Positions 4,980 through 15,875 of a stretch of 64,000 nt of DNA are shown here, piece after piece; within the stretch, counting starts at the first letter, position 1; every line of letters begins with the position of its first letter. The notes beneath the pieces were generated by a model, which was not told the origin of the DNA, searched no databases, and worked only from the letters and a program-made list of their open reading frames with translations. Where the stretch lies: assembly GCA_902560065.1 (NCBI GenBank), contig CACEKG010000002.1:26396-90395 (forward strand), written 5' to 3'. The stretch comes from an uncultured Bacteroidota bacterium (lineage in GTDB: Bacteria; Bacteroidota; Bacteroidia; Flavobacteriales; Flavobacteriaceae). The position numbers and the translations under genes are program-made.

Positions 4980-6833
4980 ATGGGAATATTTGATTTTTTT
5001 AAAAGTAATCCGACTAATAAATGTAATGTCTGTGGACAAGTAATAGATAATTCCTTTCAAACTTGTTACGAATGTTCTAATAAATTTAAAGAAAAGATAG
5101 AGTCTGAAGGAAACTTCAAAGATGGTATACAAGAAGCAGTGAAAACCTATCATGAAAATGGTCAATTAGAATCTGAAGGAAACTATAAGAATGGCAAAAA
5201 AGAAGGGTTATGGAAAGTCTATTATGAAAATGGTAAATTAAAAGGTGAAGGAAACTATAAGAATGGCAAAGAAGAAGGGTTAACTAAAATCTATTATGAA
5301 AATGGTCAATTAAATTCTGAAGCAAACGTCAAAAATGGCAAACAAGAAGGGTTATGGAAATTCTATCATGAAAACGGTCAATTAATACATGAAGGAAACT
5401 TCAAAGATGGCAAAAAAGAAGCAGTAAAAACCTATCATGAAAATGGTCAATTAAGATTTGAAAGAAGCTTCAAAGATGATAAATTAGAAGGATTAAAGAA
5501 AGCCTATTATGAAAACGGTCAATTAAAACGAAAAATAAACTATAAAAATGGTAAAGAGAACGGATTATATGAAGTCTATTCTAAAAACGGTCAATTACAT
5601 TATCAAGGAAACTATAAGAATGGCAAAGAAGAGGGATTATGTAAATTATATCATAAAAACGGTCAATTAGAATATGAAAATAAATTAAAAGATGGCAAAG
5701 AAGAGGGATTAGTGAAAACCTATTATGAAAATGGTCAATTAAGAAAAGAAGGAAACTATAAGAATGGCAAAGAAGAGGGATTAATGAAAATCTATCATGA
5801 GAATGGTCAATTAGCAAATGAAGGGATATATAAAAATGGTTTAGAAGAGGGGTTAACTAAAATCTATTATAAAAATGGTCAATTAAGAAAAGAAGGAAAC
5901 TATAAGAATGGCGAAGAAGAAGGATTATGGAAATTCTATTATGAAAACGGTCAATTAAAAAATGAAGGAAACTATAAGAATGGCGAAGAAGAAGGATTAT
6001 GGAAATCCTATAATGAAAATGGTCAATTAGAAGGAGAACATAAATACAAAAATGAAGCCCAAGAGGAAGTCGAGGGAAAAAACGAAAAAATGCTTCATAC
6101 TATCTATCCAAAATTAAAAGGAATAGACTTTAGTAAAGTTAAGTTTGGTGCTTCTGGTAATAGTGCTGCAGAATTTTTTGCTTCTGATATTGATGGAGAT
6201 TGGCATTATGCACAATCTCAAATGATAATGATATTCAAAGCATTCTCTAAAGATAAATTTGAATCAGAGTTAAAATTATTACTTGACCAAAATGAAATAA
6301 ATTTTGATAACAAAATAGAAAAAACAGAATTTTTTGCTGAACATTGGAAAGGAGATGGGTTTCAGATAGAGCACCCTGTAATGGAAGGTATTGATGTAAT
6401 AATTATTACAAATGAAGATGTTGTACCTGAGGATTCTTTAAATTTAAAACAAACTGATTTAGCACCTGAAGTGAAACTGCCAACTGGTTATGAGAATATT
6501 GGTATTGAAAATGTATATGACGGCTCAACGTTTCTAAAGGCAAATCAAGGACAACTTTCATTAAATATTCCTTTATTATTTAAAGATAATGATGACAGCT
6601 CTCATTATATTCTTATAGGTATATCTACTTTAACTCTTGCTAAAAGAATTATTGATGACATAATAGAAAAAAATTATGGCAAACAGCATTTTAAAAAATT
6701 AGATGAAAAAGAGGGTTGGCAATATATATTTGCTAATAAGTTTTTTACAATAGGATTTTTATCAAAATATAATTGTGTAAGAATAAATATGCTACATAAT
6801 CTTGTTGATATAAGTCAAGATAGTAGTAATTAG
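4980..6833 (+). CDS. zinc-ribbon / MORN-variant (YwqK-like) repeat protein with unknown C-terminal domain
   Basis: N-terminal CNVCG...CYECS double CxxC, about 13 repeats of 'EGNYKNGKEEGLWKxYYENGQL', then ~250-aa unassigned domain. Confidence 0.85.
   Translation: MGIFDFFKSNPTNKCNVCGQVIDNSFQTCYECSNKFKEKIESEGNFKDGIQEAVKTYHENGQLESEGNYKNGKKEGLWKVYYENGKLKGEGNYKNGKEEGLTKIYYENGQLNSEANVKNGKQEGLWKFYHENGQLIHEGNFKDGKKEAVKTYHENGQLRFERSFKDDKLEGLKKAYYENGQLKRKINYKNGKENGLYEVYSKNGQLHYQGNYKNGKEEGLCKLYHKNGQLEYENKLKDGKEEGLVKTYYENGQLRKEGNYKNGKEEGLMKIYHENGQLANEGIYKNGLEEGLTKIYYKNGQLRKEGNYKNGEEEGLWKFYYENGQLKNEGNYKNGEEEGLWKSYNENGQLEGEHKYKNEAQEEVEGKNEKMLHTIYPKLKGIDFSKVKFGASGNSAAEFFASDIDGDWHYAQSQMIMIFKAFSKDKFESELKLLLDQNEINFDNKIEKTEFFAEHWKGDGFQIEHPVMEGIDVIIITNEDVVPEDSLNLKQTDLAPEVKLPTGYENIGIENVYDGSTFLKANQGQLSLNIPLLFKDNDDSSHYILIGISTLTLAKRIIDDIIEKNYGKQHFKKLDEKEGWQYIFANKFFTIGFLSKYNCVRINMLHNLVDISQDSSN
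5101..6060 (+). repeat. 72-bp (24-aa) intragenic tandem repeat array, about 13 units
   Basis: Repeated ggaaactataagaatggcaaagaagagggatta...tatgaaaatggtcaatta; two units (1 and 5) are 23 aa. Confidence 0.85.
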
Positions 6834-6891: not shown

Positions 6892-7440
6892 ATGAAAAAA
6901 CTATTATTAATACTATTAATTTTTCCTCTATCTATTTTTTCACAAGTTCAGCAGAATAATGTACAAGTAAATTTAAACAATCAAAAAAGTTCTGCCGAAA
7001 TTATTAATGAAGGGCGTCAAACAGCAATAAATAGAGCAAAAGCAATGGATAAGGCATCAACTATTATTAAGATACCTGTAACGGTTGATTTTAATAACTA
7101 TACTCATATTGCTTTAGTAGGAGTTGATTATTGGGTGAGAGGATGGGGAATAAGAAACCACAAAGGGGCATATAAAAAAGTAAAAGAATTACTTTCGTAC
7201 TCTTTTTTAGAAATTATAAACCCTGCAGAAGAAGATAAAAAGAAATTTAAAGAAAATCCGATGTTTTTAAGACGTATTAAAGACCCTAATTGGTTATATG
7301 TTTACTATAAAGACGAATTTGTAGGTGTTAATACTGTTTCGAGTTTAGTAATAAGAGATTCAAAAAATAAAATTCTTTATTCTGCTATTCATACAAATAC
7401 CACTTCAGCAGAAATATTCTCTCCTTTAACCGATTTTTAA
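6892..7440 (+). CDS. hypothetical secreted protein
   Basis: MKKLLLILLIFPLSIFSQ signal peptide; 182 aa; followed by terminator. Confidence 0.7.
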   Translation: MKKLLLILLIFPLSIFSQVQQNNVQVNLNNQKSSAEIINEGRQTAINRAKAMDKASTIIKIPVTVDFNNYTHIALVGVDYWVRGWGIRNHKGAYKKVKELLSYSFLEIINPAEEDKKKFKENPMFLRRIKDPNWLYVYYKDEFVGVNTVSSLVIRDSKNKILYSAIHTNTTSAEIFSPLTDF

Positions 7441-7465
7441 AGTTCATTAAAGAATATTACAATTT

Positions 7466-7493
7466 CCCTCTAATTAACTTTAGGGGGTTTTTT
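7466..7493 (+). terminator. rho-independent terminator (copy C of the repeated element)
   Basis: CCCTCTAATTAACTTTAGGGGGTTTTTT, same hairpin as 966-995. Confidence 0.75.
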
Positions 7494-7507
7494 ATTTCTC
7501 AAAATCC

Positions 7508-7570
7508 AACGAATCGAACACCTATAAAAAAGGGTCAGAATTAAACGAATTAAACACCTATAAAAAAGGG
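7508..7570. repeat. 36-bp direct repeat, about 1.75 copies
   Basis: aacgaatcgaacacctataaaaaaggg at 7508 and aacgaattaaacacctataaaaaaggg at 7544. Confidence 0.7.
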
Positions 7571-7731
7571 AATTTTTTTAGTACAATGAAACAGGTAATA
7601 TGAATGGTTTATTTTCCTTTAATAGTATAATATTTGCGGTGTGTTTGTACGGATTTGTGTACGAAAGTTGGCTTAGACCTTATAATTATTAGTTTTAATA
7701 AATAATTGTCGAATATATGGAGTTGTAACCA

Positions 7732-8373
7732 TTAGTAAAACATACATCCTTCAGATACAATTATTTCGCCTGTGTCAACAAAATCTTTTGAATAATCTTT
7801 TTCAGAAGGACTGAATATAAATGTTTGATCTATTTCGCTTGTGTCAACTAAATCTTCAGAATTATTATTTTTGATTTTATTACTAGAAAAATGAAGTAAG
7901 CTGTCAATTACTTCATATTTATAACTTATAGTATATTCAACTTCTTCATTAAAACCATAATAATCATAATCAAACCAAAAAAGATCCCACTCATCTTTTT
8001 TGATTCTTATATTCCATTTTATTCCATCGTAGGTTGTTTCACCTAATTTCCATCCGTCACAATATGAAGTAGTATTATCAATATTAAAGAAAGATATAAA
8101 ATAGTTGCTGTTTGAAAATTTTATATCTGAAAAGTCACTGTAATAATTTTCTACATCTTCCCAGATTGTCCCGTCATATTTATCTAAAAATCGACAAAAT
8201 TTTCTTCCCAACCCTCCATTACAGTATGATAAACGTGATCCGTCAAGAAAATAGTACTGTAATCCTTGTGCATCTATTGCAGCGTTTTTTCTTTCATACC
8301 AATGTTGGGTTATTTCGCTTTTCATACAAGAAAACGTAACAATGAATAAAAAGAGTAAAAGTATTTTTTTCAC
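7732..8373 (-). CDS. lipoprotein, paralog 1 of 3 (GTG start)
   Basis: VKKILLLFLFIVTFSC lipobox; ends DTGEIIVSEGCMFY. GTG start 1 nt after upstream paralog stop. Confidence 0.75.
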   Translation of the reverse strand: MKKILLLFLFIVTFSCMKSEITQHWYERKNAAIDAQGLQYYFLDGSRLSYCNGGLGRKFCRFLDKYDGTIWEDVENYYSDFSDIKFSNSNYFISFFNIDNTTSYCDGWKLGETTYDGIKWNIRIKKDEWDLFWFDYDYYGFNEEVEYTISYKYEVIDSLLHFSSNKIKNNNSEDLVDTSEIDQTFIFSPSEKDYSKDFVDTGEIIVSEGCMFY

Positions 8374-8374
8374 T

Positions 8375-9031
8375 TTAATAAAACATACATCCATCGGATA
8401 CAATTATTTCGCCTGTATCAACTAAATCTTTTGAATAATTTTTTTCAGAAGGACTGAAAATAAATGTTTGATCTATTTCGCTTGTGTCAACTAAATCTTC
8501 AGTATTATTTTTTTTAATTTTAGTACGTGAAAAATGAAGTAAACCGTCTATTACTTCATATTTATAACTTATGGTATATTCAATTTCTTCACTAAACCCA
8601 TAATACTCATAATCAAACCACAAAATATCCAACTCATCTTTTTTGAACCTTATATATGATTTTATTCCGTCGTTGATTGTTTCACCTAATTTCCATCCAT
8701 CACAATATGAAGCAGTATTATCAAGATTAAAGAAGGATATAAAATAAGGACCATCCTTAAAGTTTGAGAATTTTATATCAGAAAAATCACTATAATAATT
8801 TTCATCATCTGCCCAGATTGTTCCATTATGATTATACAAAAATGCACAACCCTTTGATCCCCAACCAGGAGCACAGCCAACTCCAGTAGCTGAATTTCCT
8901 TTACTAAAATAAAGTTGTAATCCATTTGGAAGTCTCCTATCACTTTTATTTTCATACCAATGTTGGGTTATTTCGCTTTTCATACAAGAAAACGTAACAA
9001 AGAATAAAAAGAGTAAAAGTATTTTTTTCAT
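8375..9031 (-). CDS. lipoprotein, paralog 2 of 3
   Basis: MKKILLLFLFFVTFSC lipobox; near-identical flanks to paralogs 1 and 3, divergent central segment. Confidence 0.75.
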   Translation of the reverse strand: MKKILLLFLFFVTFSCMKSEITQHWYENKSDRRLPNGLQLYFSKGNSATGVGCAPGWGSKGCAFLYNHNGTIWADDENYYSDFSDIKFSNFKDGPYFISFFNLDNTASYCDGWKLGETINDGIKSYIRFKKDELDILWFDYEYYGFSEEIEYTISYKYEVIDGLLHFSRTKIKKNNTEDLVDTSEIDQTFIFSPSEKNYSKDLVDTGEIIVSDGCMFY

Positions 9032-9032
9032 T

Positions 9033-9662
9033 TTAATAAAACATACATCCTTCGGATACAATTATTTCACCTGTATCAACTAAATCTTTTGAATAATTTT
9101 TTTCAGAAGGAGTGAAAATAAATGTTTCGATTTTGTCAACTAAATCTTTAGCATTATATTTTTTGAATTTAGTACTTGAAAAATTGAGCAAACCATCAAT
9201 TACTTCATATTTATAACTTATAGTATATTCAACTTCTTCACTAAAACCATAATAATCATAATCAAACCAAAAAAGATCCCACTCATCTCTTTTGATTCTT
9301 ATATTCCATTTTATTCCATCGTAGGTTGTTTCACCTACTTTCCACCCTTCACAATATGATGCAGTATTATCAAGATTAAAGAAAGATATAAAATAGGGAT
9401 TATTTGAAAATTTTATATCAGAAAAGTCGCTGTAATAATTTTCTGCATCTGCCCAAATCGTCCCATCATATTTATCTAAAAATCGACAAAATTTTCGTGA
9501 ATTCCCATTACAATAATCTAAACGTGATTGATCAAGAAAATAATACACTAATCCCTGAGCATCTACTGCAGCATTTTTGTTTTCATACCAATGTTGGGTT
9601 ATTTCGCTTTTCATACAAGAAAACAAACCAAAAAATAAAATAAGTAAAAGAAACTTTTTCAT
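9033..9662 (-). CDS. lipoprotein, paralog 3 of 3
   Basis: MKKFLLLILFFGLFSC lipobox; same family. Confidence 0.75.
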   Translation of the reverse strand: MKKFLLLILFFGLFSCMKSEITQHWYENKNAAVDAQGLVYYFLDQSRLDYCNGNSRKFCRFLDKYDGTIWADAENYYSDFSDIKFSNNPYFISFFNLDNTASYCEGWKVGETTYDGIKWNIRIKRDEWDLFWFDYDYYGFSEEVEYTISYKYEVIDGLLNFSSTKFKKYNAKDLVDKIETFIFTPSEKNYSKDLVDTGEIIVSEGCMFY

Positions 9663-9757
9663 TTATCTTAAATTAAAAAATAAATTTGTCCAAGCAAACT
9701 CCAATTTATTTTTATGAAGTTTTTTGTAAATTTAGTTTTAAATCAAAACAAATAAAA

Positions 9758-10165
9758 ATGAAAAAATATATTTTAACATTTATTTCAACTTTTTTTGCCA
9801 CTGGGGTAGTAGGTTCGATACTAGGTGTTCTTTACTATGGTCCAGAACAAGCAAAATTAAGTAAACTTTTCCCCCCTGGGATAGTAAATGAAATCCCAGA
9901 TCCTGTTTTTATGCTAATTAGTGGCATTGCATTAATGCTTTTAATGATAATTAGTTTTGATAAAATGGGAGTAAATAATTTGAAAAATGGTGCTGTTACT
10001 GGAGCTTGGTATGGAGCTTTAATTTTTACATTCTTTGGTTTTCAATTTATGGGGTTAGTTAATATTGTTACAGTAGAATTTGTTTTAATTGATATCTCTA
10101 TTTCTACAGTGATTGGAGCTTTTCAAGGTGCTGTAATTGGTTGGTCTCTTCGAAAATTTGGATAA
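9758..10165 (+). CDS. small multi-pass membrane protein
   Basis: Internal ATG MKKYILTFISTFFATGVVGSILGVLYYG...; four hydrophobic segments. Confidence 0.65.
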   Translation: MKKYILTFISTFFATGVVGSILGVLYYGPEQAKLSKLFPPGIVNEIPDPVFMLISGIALMLLMIISFDKMGVNNLKNGAVTGAWYGALIFTFFGFQFMGLVNIVTVEFVLIDISISTVIGAFQGAVIGWSLRKFG

Positions 10166-12630: not shown

Positions 12631-14667
12631 ATGAAAAACAAACTAATAATTTTACTATCGTTATCTTTTATTACAATTGGATTTTCTCAGGATAGAACCA
12701 TTATTTCTGATTTAGAAAACCTAACTCTTGATGTTGGTCAAGTTTTTAAGCCAAACTCTAAAGTGATTAATTTTGATGGAAGTCAGGGTGATTGTGAAAG
12801 ATTAATCTATTATAACAAAAAAGGTGTTTTTAGTTCAGCTAAATCAATAATATTTGACAGGTCTAAAGGAACTCTAAAAGCAAATGACCCAGGAACTCAT
12901 GAAATAGTTGCTGTATGCATTAACTCAGGAGGTAAAAGATTGACAAAAACATTTTATGTAAATGTCAATTACCCAAAAGTTAAAGAAGTAAAACTTTCTC
13001 TTAGTGATGACAATATATTTGTTGGAAATTATATTCCGCTTGTTTATGAAATAACCGATGAACTTAATACTAAAAGAATAATTGATTATTGGAGTTATGA
13101 TGTAGCTTCAAAATACTTTTCTGAAGTTGAGGTTTCTTTAACTTCAAGTAATGATAAAATTCAAATTGATAAATCAAATAATATTTTAGCTCTTGAAGAA
13201 GGTAGTTCTTCGGTAGTTGCAACATTTGATGGAATTTCAGGTATGATAGATTTAAAAATTAAAAAAAATCCAGTTGCAAAGTTAATTTTAAAGTCTGATG
13301 CAGATAAATCGAGATCTGGAGACGTGATAAATTTTGATGCAATTGCATATAATAAAAAAGGTGAAGAAATTGATGACATAAATGTAGATTTTTCATTTAC
13401 AGGGAAGTCATTTGATAAAAGTAATTCTGCTTCAGGATTAATTTTAGAAGATGGAAGATTTGTAGGTGATGTTCCTGGGAAATATATTATTTCTGCAAAA
13501 GTTGGAAATGTAACAACTTCAAAAATCGTTAACATTTTCCCTAGAAACGTAAAACGAGAAATTAAAAAAGTTGGAACAGGTCTTGTCAACGACAAACATA
13601 CATCTGATTTCTGGGTTTTTGAAGGAGATGATGGACGCGATTATGCAGTTACAGGAACATGGGGTGCTGATGGAAAAGCCTATTTTTGGGATGTTACAAA
13701 TCCAGGAAATTTAAAAAAGATTGATAGTGTTCAAGTTGATGCAAGAACTGTAAATGACGTTAAAGTTTCTCAAAATGGAAAAATTTGTGTTATAAGTCGT
13801 GAAGGGGCTTCTAATCGAAAAAATGGTATGATATTAATTGATGTAACTAACCCTAGAGATGTAAAAATTATTTCAGAATATACTAAAAATCTGACGGGAG
13901 GAGTACATAATGTATTCATTGACAACAATCATGTATATGCATTAAGTAACGGTGAAAGATATTATATAATTAATATTGATGACCCCTATAATCCAAAAGA
14001 AGTTGGAATGTTTGAAGTAGGTAAAGAAGGTCAATCTATTCATGATGTATGGATTGAGGATGGTATAGCATATTCCTCTAATTGGAGAGATGGTGTATAT
14101 CTAGTTGATGTGGGAAATGGAATAGTAGGAGGCTCTCCTTCTAACCCGGTTGCTTTTGGAAATTATTCCTATGCTACTGGAGCTCACCATGCAACATTTC
14201 CATATAAAAGTAGTTCAACTGGAAAGTTTTATACTGTGTTAGGAGATGAAATTTTTCCAAATGGCGTTAATCCCAATGGAACAAATGAAACTGCTGGATT
14301 TCTTCATTTTGTAGATTTTACAGATTTAAATAATCCAGTTGAAGTTGCAAGGTATGAACTTCCAACCCATGGATCTCACAATTATTGGATTGAAGATGAC
14401 ATCTTATATGTTGCAATGTATACTGGTGGTATACGAATTGTGGATATAAGTGGTGACTTATTAGGAGATCTTTATAAACAAGGTCGAGAAATAGGCTACT
14501 TGCTAACAGGCAGTCCAGATGGTTATATTCCTAATGATACAATGGTTTGGGGAACTCAACTTTATAAAGGACATGTTTTTTATTCTGATTTTAATACAGG
14601 ACTGGGAGCAGCTAAAGTTTCACAAGAAAAGCCTGATAATAGTAAAACAAATCAATATCTAGATTAA
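12631..14667 (+). CDS. secreted Ig-like (Big_2-type) / LVIVD-repeat protein
   Basis: Signal peptide; Ig-like N-terminal part; repeated 'VYLVDVGN', 'IRIVDISGD', 'FVDFTDLNNPVEVARY' LVIVD-type blades. Confidence 0.7.
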   Translation: MKNKLIILLSLSFITIGFSQDRTIISDLENLTLDVGQVFKPNSKVINFDGSQGDCERLIYYNKKGVFSSAKSIIFDRSKGTLKANDPGTHEIVAVCINSGGKRLTKTFYVNVNYPKVKEVKLSLSDDNIFVGNYIPLVYEITDELNTKRIIDYWSYDVASKYFSEVEVSLTSSNDKIQIDKSNNILALEEGSSSVVATFDGISGMIDLKIKKNPVAKLILKSDADKSRSGDVINFDAIAYNKKGEEIDDINVDFSFTGKSFDKSNSASGLILEDGRFVGDVPGKYIISAKVGNVTTSKIVNIFPRNVKREIKKVGTGLVNDKHTSDFWVFEGDDGRDYAVTGTWGADGKAYFWDVTNPGNLKKIDSVQVDARTVNDVKVSQNGKICVISREGASNRKNGMILIDVTNPRDVKIISEYTKNLTGGVHNVFIDNNHVYALSNGERYYIINIDDPYNPKEVGMFEVGKEGQSIHDVWIEDGIAYSSNWRDGVYLVDVGNGIVGGSPSNPVAFGNYSYATGAHHATFPYKSSSTGKFYTVLGDEIFPNGVNPNGTNETAGFLHFVDFTDLNNPVEVARYELPTHGSHNYWIEDDILYVAMYTGGIRIVDISGDLLGDLYKQGREIGYLLTGSPDGYIPNDTMVWGTQLYKGHVFYSDFNTGLGAAKVSQEKPDNSKTNQYLD

Positions 14668-14723: not shown

Positions 14724-15875
14724 ATGTTAGCCTTTTCTAAAATCTCATATCCATATAAATTTCTACTAATTTTTTTAGTATCTAACATTATTAACTCACA
14801 AAACTATTATTTATATGTTGCTTCCGAATCAGACGATACAGTTTCTCTTTTGAAATTTGACGGAAAATACATTGAGGAAAAAGAAAGAATTAGTGTTGGT
14901 ATATATCCTACAGAAATTGAGGGCCCTCATGGTATTACAATTGATCCAAATGGAAAATATTGGTACCTTACTCTAGCCCATGGAAATCCTTATGGAAAAC
15001 TGCTAAAATATTCAACCCAAACAAATGAAGTAATAGATGAAACAACTCTTGGTCTATTTCCCGCTTCAATGCAAATTTCAAAAGTTACTGGTTTTTTATA
15101 CTGTGTAAACTTTAACTTACATGGGAACATGAAACCATCTACTGTTTCAGTAGTAGATGCTGAAACTATGACCGAAATTACTCAAATTAAAACTGGGAGT
15201 ATGCCTCATGGCTCAAGGGTTTCTAATGATGGGTTAAAACAATATTCTGTTGCAATGATGTCAGGAGAATTATTTGAAATAGATGCATTATCACTTAATG
15301 TTTCAAGAAAACTTAGTCTTGATAATCATTCAAAAATGGATCATTCAAAAATGGATCATTCAAAAATGGATCATTCAAAAATGGATCATTCAAAAATGGA
15401 TCATGATAAAATTAATATCAGTAAAATGGTCCACTCAGAAATTAAACCAACTTGGGTCATTCCTCACCCTAAAGAAAATTTTCTTTATATCGCTGGAAAT
15501 GGTTCAGATGAAATTATTGAAGTAGATATTGATAAATGGAAAATTTCTAAAAGAATCAAAGCAGAAAAAGGTCCTTATAATGTGGAAATTTCACCTGATG
15601 GAAAATATATGCTTGCGACATTAAAAAGTAGTGGGTACACAGCAATTTGGAACTTAAAAAATGGTTCTTTGATAAATAAAATAAAGAATTCAACTTCGGT
15701 TCCACATGGAATAGCGATTTCCGCTGACAGTAAATTTGCTTTTGTTTCTGTAGAGGGAATAGGAGGTGAACCTGGAATTGTTGATGTTATTGACCTTAAT
15801 AAAAAAACTTTAGTTGATAACGTTAAAATTGGCAAACAAGCAGGAGGTATTGCTTTTTGGAAAAAAGAACCTTAA
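14724..15875 (+). CDS. secreted YncE/Lvp-like beta-propeller protein with His/Met-rich repeat insert
   Basis: YVASESDDTVSLLKF, GPHGITIDPNGKYWY, PYNVEISPDGKYMLAT, PHGIAISADSKFAFVSVEG; insert HSKMDHSKMDHSKMDHSKMDHSKMDHDK. Confidence 0.8.
   Translation: MLAFSKISYPYKFLLIFLVSNIINSQNYYLYVASESDDTVSLLKFDGKYIEEKERISVGIYPTEIEGPHGITIDPNGKYWYLTLAHGNPYGKLLKYSTQTNEVIDETTLGLFPASMQISKVTGFLYCVNFNLHGNMKPSTVSVVDAETMTEITQIKTGSMPHGSRVSNDGLKQYSVAMMSGELFEIDALSLNVSRKLSLDNHSKMDHSKMDHSKMDHSKMDHSKMDHDKINISKMVHSEIKPTWVIPHPKENFLYIAGNGSDEIIEVDIDKWKISKRIKAEKGPYNVEISPDGKYMLATLKSSGYTAIWNLKNGSLINKIKNSTSVPHGIAISADSKFAFVSVEGIGGEPGIVDVIDLNKKTLVDNVKIGKQAGGIAFWKKEP
15327..15401 (+). repeat. 15-bp tandem repeat (cattcaaaaatggat) x5
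   Basis: Five identical units read directly, encoding HSKMD. Confidence 0.95.

Follow-up and report, generated by a model that had tools for sequence, protein, structure and literature searches.

Peptide repeats of the DHSKMDHSKM type occur in variable copy number in CopB, in CusB, in copper P1B ATPases and in CopA multicopper oxidases. In these oxidases, adaptors and transporters, the repeats serve as a tail or a linker. Met/His-rich loops are also present in the CueO-type proteins; CueO itself is a cupredoxin-fold oxidase. CopM and PcoE, both Met- and His-rich, bind copper and act in resistance, and in vitro CopM showed an interaction with nickel as well, which was ascribed to its many His residues (PMC4335983). 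The literature that we searched on YncE/LVIVD proteins and copper, on the literal repeat peptide and on the two-gene cassette described below contained nothing relevant and no described function.

Here, we analyse a gene in which a repeat of this type is built into a beta-propeller. The gene lies in the window, i.e., the whole 64,000-nucleotide stretch of Flavobacteriaceae DNA under study. The larger finding is the protein family that carries the repeat, together with the core site of this family. In our estimate there is a probability of roughly 0.6 that the product is a copper-binding propeller in which strap and core act together.

The repeat array and the protein that carries it

The relevant features of the window are the following:

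12631–14667, + strand: cassette partner, a 678-aa secreted protein with N-terminal Ig-like domains and a C-terminal LVIVD/choice-of-anchor-B-like propeller (weak TIGR04312 match, structure model)
14724–15875, + strand: 383-aa secreted YVTN/YncE-like seven-bladed beta-propeller with His/Met strap (ORF, Pfam, AF2)
14928–15260, + strand: invariant His/Met of blades 1–3, namely H69, H86, H133, M149, M160, H162, M178 and M179 (69-sequence alignment, AF2)
15318–15446, + strand: entire His/Met/Asp-rich strap, residues 199–241 (DSSP and pLDDT; 69-sequence comparison of length and composition)
15327–15401, + strand: five identical 15-bp units, HSKMD x5, residues 202–226 (sequence, TRF)
15705–15707, + strand: codon of H328 (100% in 69 sequences)

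The array consists of five perfect copies of the 15-bp unit CATTCAAAAATGGAT at 15327–15401 (+), as an earlier note on this DNA had claimed. They are in frame with the 383-codon ORF 14724–15875 (+), encoding (HSKMD)x5 followed by HDKINISKMVHS. TRF calls the array at 15325–15404 (period 15, 5.3 copies, match 100%, score 160), and the end coordinate given earlier, 15430, takes in a degenerate tail beyond the exact units. The pattern ATGGAYCAYNNNNNNATGGAYCAY has four overlapping matches in the assembled genome, all within this array, while the reversed control has none; the array is the sole one of its sort in the assembled genome. Its exact copy number is an assembly figure for an array span of 80 bp. 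As to the possibility, raised in the earlier note, of an assembly artefact that no homolog shares, 61 of 69 homologs carry a His/Met-rich insert. An artefact is unlikely because about 60 independent genomes have such a segment at the same point and because the array is only 80 bp long.

The assignment to the YncE-like propellers, likewise made from the sequence of the window, agrees with both Pfam and structure prediction. The YNCE model (PF21783) scores 40.4 bits against a cut-off of 27.1 with the window protein and is matched by 30 of 34 relatives, and the AF2 model (pLDDT 85.5) has seven four-stranded blades and a signal-like hydrophobic N-terminal helix at residues 9–23. Cytochrom_D1 (41 bits) and the Lactonase propeller model also exceed their cut-offs with the window protein. 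The E. coli YncE equivalog was rejected (NF052280, 36.3 bits against 400 required). Modelling of the propeller, as had been proposed, locates the repeat in the loop between blades 3 and 4, which connects strand D of the former with strand A of the latter (AF2, DSSP). The pLDDT falls below 50 at strap residues 203–233, and the loop is predicted to be disordered or flexible.

Distribution of the family and variation of the strap

Among 84,980 species genomes scanned, 36 full-length relatives were detected (L013–L048), with 51–94% identity in the best segment. Of 396 genomes drawn from across the phylum, 44 contained the family according to a profile search. With the same kind of profile, no match at 1e-20 was obtained in two sets that had no positive control, 200 genomes from the phylum of genome G456 and 24 genomes from that of G451. 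The alignment used hereafter comprises 69 sequences from Bacteroidota and Rhodothermia-like genomes; the taxon labels of families f38, f50 and f52 are guesses from kinship and tree position.

A strap was considered enriched when His and Met together numbered five or more in the loop between blades 3 and 4 (D3–A4). By this measure, 61 of the 69 sequences are enriched at the homologous position, and the label changes three times on the tree of the 69 sequences, against a mean of 7.7 for shuffled labels. The rows without enrichment are L048, L125–L127 (Rhodothermia-like) and L110, L121, L122 and L129 (family f38). The straps are about 5 to 70 residues long and span 6–72 positions. The composition also varies: DHSKM arrays are found in Roseivirga, L022 and L046, His/Met mixtures in L024 and L035, and mainly Met and Lys in L003, L023 and L028, while the short forms of L040–L044 read HHRNAMHHSK. 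The strap is not essential, since eight of the 69 sequences lack the enrichment and some straps (L003 and L023) are Lys/Met-rich with one His only. Overall, it is a variable accessory of the core, lost in several relatives.

Length changes and selection on the peptide

Perfect repeats had been predicted to change in length without frameshift, and the comparison with the closest congener (L013) bears this out: the two sequences are near-identical over the region except that exactly 30 bp, i.e., two whole units, are missing in frame from L013, which has three units against five in the window. Given that L013 is two units shorter and that its remaining units have point changes, the window array has recently been homogenised or expanded, and the length changes keep the frame. 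Tuning of the loop length, as proposed in the earlier note, would be a further and more tentative step.

The identity of the window units at the DNA level and the two-unit gap to the congener reflect slippage, and the loop is disordered in the AF2 model; the array could thus be a neutral minisatellite, without function, in a permissive loop. We consider this highly improbable, as relatives keep the peptide despite scrambled synonymous codons. In the more distant relative L025, seven identical DHSKM peptides have seven different DNA spellings, with Ser codons TCC, AGT, AGC, TCT and TCA, i.e., with switches between TCN and AGY. Since identical DHSKM peptides are written in differing synonymous codons in several relatives, the peptide is under selection and is not merely a slipped DNA repeat. 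The pooled within-array pN/pS is about 0.16, with synonymous changes near saturation, a value biased downward because the arrays were picked by motif. That different classes share the composition of this site, and that the same peptide is concentrated in copper proteins (see below), also argues against a functionless repeat, and the neutral reading is largely contradicted, by the codon data among others.

The same peptide in copper proteins

The genome scan also provided a comparison set that shares the repeat only (L049–L092), from which 40 reading frames were classified. Copper P-type ATPases account for 19 of them, CopB for 10, CopA-type multicopper oxidases for 4 and CusB for 3. The statement in the earlier note that MDHS-type repeats are known in copper-handling proteins is therefore well founded, as some 36 of the 40 unrelated proteins with the repeat belong to copper systems, and the MDHS-type repeat is common to the window protein and to known copper proteins. 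Judged from these sequences, the repeat elsewhere is mostly a copper-system peptide, which is not proof of binding in the window protein. On this basis we infer that the strap binds metal, a reading that is well supported. MDHSK arrays of at least 15 units are found in proteins of other phyla (L049, 4853–5998, and similar), showing how freely the repeat expands.

Strap and core might bind another metal in vivo (Zn, Ni or Ag). This is quite improbable, given that the other hosts of the peptide are copper systems and that one Met per unit and the MM pair of the core favour Cu(I)/Ag by established chemistry; on the other hand, His/Asp-rich peptides bind Zn and Ni. The interaction of CopM with nickel in vitro (PMC4335983) also counts for such a metal.

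The upstream partner and the gene neighbourhood

The partner gene ends 56 bp upstream of the strap gene, and a partner of 650–680 aa is found directly upstream in 35 of the 36 database loci (L013–L048), as well as in L095–L123. TIGR04312 gives 65.6 bits on the partner of the window, under the cut-off of 100, so that it resembles the choice-of-anchor-B/LVIVD proteins without qualifying as a member. Its model has a pLDDT of 83.7. In the window and L013–L047, His 426, 471, 520, 559 and 583 of the partner are invariant and D539/E540 are conserved; tandem duplicates of the partner are present in L026, L028, L032, L039, L047 and L132. Among other propellers, the partner model shows some likeness to 5hrm, a metal-dependent phosphotriesterase of Sphingobium (TMt 0.55, 15% identity); this is a lead only, and the partner sequence profile has no significant match to 5hrm (E 0.41).

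Beyond the partner, the neighbours vary among loci L013–L048, and no copper genes were seen beside the cassette among the neighbours read. A copper P-type ATPase was not found in the 66% of the genome that is assembled by completeness estimate. Elsewhere in the window, a 617-aa ORF (4980–6833) has a MORN-like repeat of 72 bp, or 24 aa (YENGQLKYEGNYKNGKEEGL), in about 12 copies, and two adjoining similar lipoprotein-like genes of about 210–230 aa (8375–9662, − strand) form an apparent tandem duplication, with three copies in L013.

An invariant His/Met core on the face of the strap

H69, H86, H133, H162, H328, M149, M160, M178 and M179 are 100% conserved in the 69 sequences, strap or none, and these core residues remain unchanged in the relatives that lack the strap. 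In the AF2 model, H69, H162 and H328 each mark the start of an inner strand (strand A), in blades 1, 3 and 6, respectively; H86, H133 and M178–M179 are in the B–C loops of blades 1–3, and M160 is in the D2–A3 loop. By propeller topology, all of the invariant His/Met would be located on the face of the D3–A4 strap except M149, which would be on the other face; the proposed geometry follows from the strand topology of the model and not from residue distances. With this invariant set on the strap's own face and a conserved two-gene cassette, the protein is not the "otherwise ordinary" propeller of the earlier description.

Solubility or protein–protein contact could also account for the conservation of the core His/Met. 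Furthermore, the strap could be a general metal or copper sponge serving in buffering or resistance, while the core residues have another role, e.g., the binding of the upstream partner or of a small molecule. The wide range of strap lengths is what a buffer would predict, the core is unaltered in the 8 of 69 sequences from which the strap is missing, and the Met/His-rich CopM and PcoE bind copper in resistance (PMC4335983). We nevertheless regard a sponge with an independent core as unlikely, because it leaves unexplained why His and Met, and not other residues, are invariant on the strap's face, and because a role in resistance predicts copper-gene neighbours, none of which were seen.

Proposed function

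The preferred reading remains that strap and core bind copper together. Since a strap made of a copper-system peptide adjoins an invariant His/Met cluster, these proteins probably constitute an undescribed copper-binding family. The product would be a secreted (periplasmic or surface-side) copper-binding beta-propeller, in which H69, H162 and H328 would line the channel mouth and, with H86, H133, M160 and M178–M179 of the top-face loops, form a metal site, most likely for copper. The disordered MDHSK strap on the same face, lengthening or shortening by whole 15-bp units, would collect or buffer Cu(I)/Cu(II) and hold copper at the mouth of the core site, from which transfer to the core may follow. 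The strap protein may act jointly with the upstream propeller.

If this is true, marine Flavobacteriia, Cytophagia and Rhodothermia-like bacteria would possess a family of cuproproteins that is widespread yet unannotated, and a copper-capture peptide would have found a further use as a strap between blades whose length changes by 15-bp units. As natural versions with and without the strap exist on one conserved core, the role of the strap is directly testable.

An enzymatic role for the strap protein is less probable than copper binding. A distant relative (L130 in genome G311, 7399–10161; 23%) keeps H69, H162, MM178–179 and H328 and is devoid of H86, H133 and the strap. It has an N-terminal CX4CH haem-type segment (PSCyt1 19 bits, just below the cut-off of 22) and is followed by a cytochrome c554-like multihaem gene. 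The fusion and its neighbour, a lead from one locus, hint at redox chemistry. It is conceivable, albeit doubtful, that the cassette is a redox enzyme system of Bacteroidota that depends on copper and has so far gone undescribed. The strap propeller would then have, at its channel mouth, a His5/Met-rich copper site loaded by its own MDHSK strap and would act with a second His-rich propeller; the haem-c-fused relative would be the electron-transfer version of the system.

Comparison with known systems

NosZ, including the clade III L-NosZ (He et al. 2025, as cited in PMC13122619), is a seven-bladed propeller with His at some inner-strand starts, as in the strap family. The L-NosZ model matches the strap protein at about 64 bits, and NosZ structures are among the fold matches (TMq about 0.67–0.70). 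However, membership in the nitrous oxide reductase group, e.g., in clade III L-NosZ, has a very small probability and was ruled out by score, domain content and His pattern. The score of 64.1 bits (54.7 in the genome search) is far under the cut-off of 700, and the same model also matches ordinary propellers encoded by E. coli and B. subtilis. The CuA/cupredoxin domain (CxxxCxxxH-type motif, present in L136/L137) is absent, the 383-aa protein ending at the last propeller strand. Measured against the seven-His pattern of CuZ, just three of the seven inner strands of the strap family start with His (H69, H162 and H328), wrong in both number and position. The L-NosZ-like protein in L136 reaches 576 bits and has the C-terminal cupredoxin domain; NosZ-type proteins in G451 and G455 have a C-terminal cupredoxin-like domain and His at nearly every inner-strand start. 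The Cytophagales genome of L022 encodes, together with its strap protein, a 661-aa NosZ-type protein (L137, 4972–6954) with DDAHHPELSQTDG and a CuA-like C-terminus.

The YVTN/YncE-like propellers 1l0q and 3vgz share the fold and the blade motif. 1l0q, the nearest solved YVTN relative and best PDB match (E 1.4e-18, TM 0.72), has no strap and has residues other than His at the PHG positions aligned with H162 and H328, whereas the window family has both. The beta subunit of hydrazine synthase (5c2v) is similar in its propeller (68.8 bits, E 3e-18) and is also a fold match, but it does not share the conserved His of the strap family in the aligned stretch. With the CueO-type loops, to which no sequence relation is claimed, the strap would share its way of working, that of a mobile stretch of Met and His covering the copper site of a periplasmic protein. 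Finally, unlike the repeats of CopA, CopB, CusB and the P1B ATPases, those of the window family make up an inter-blade loop inside a propeller that has its own invariant His/Met set.
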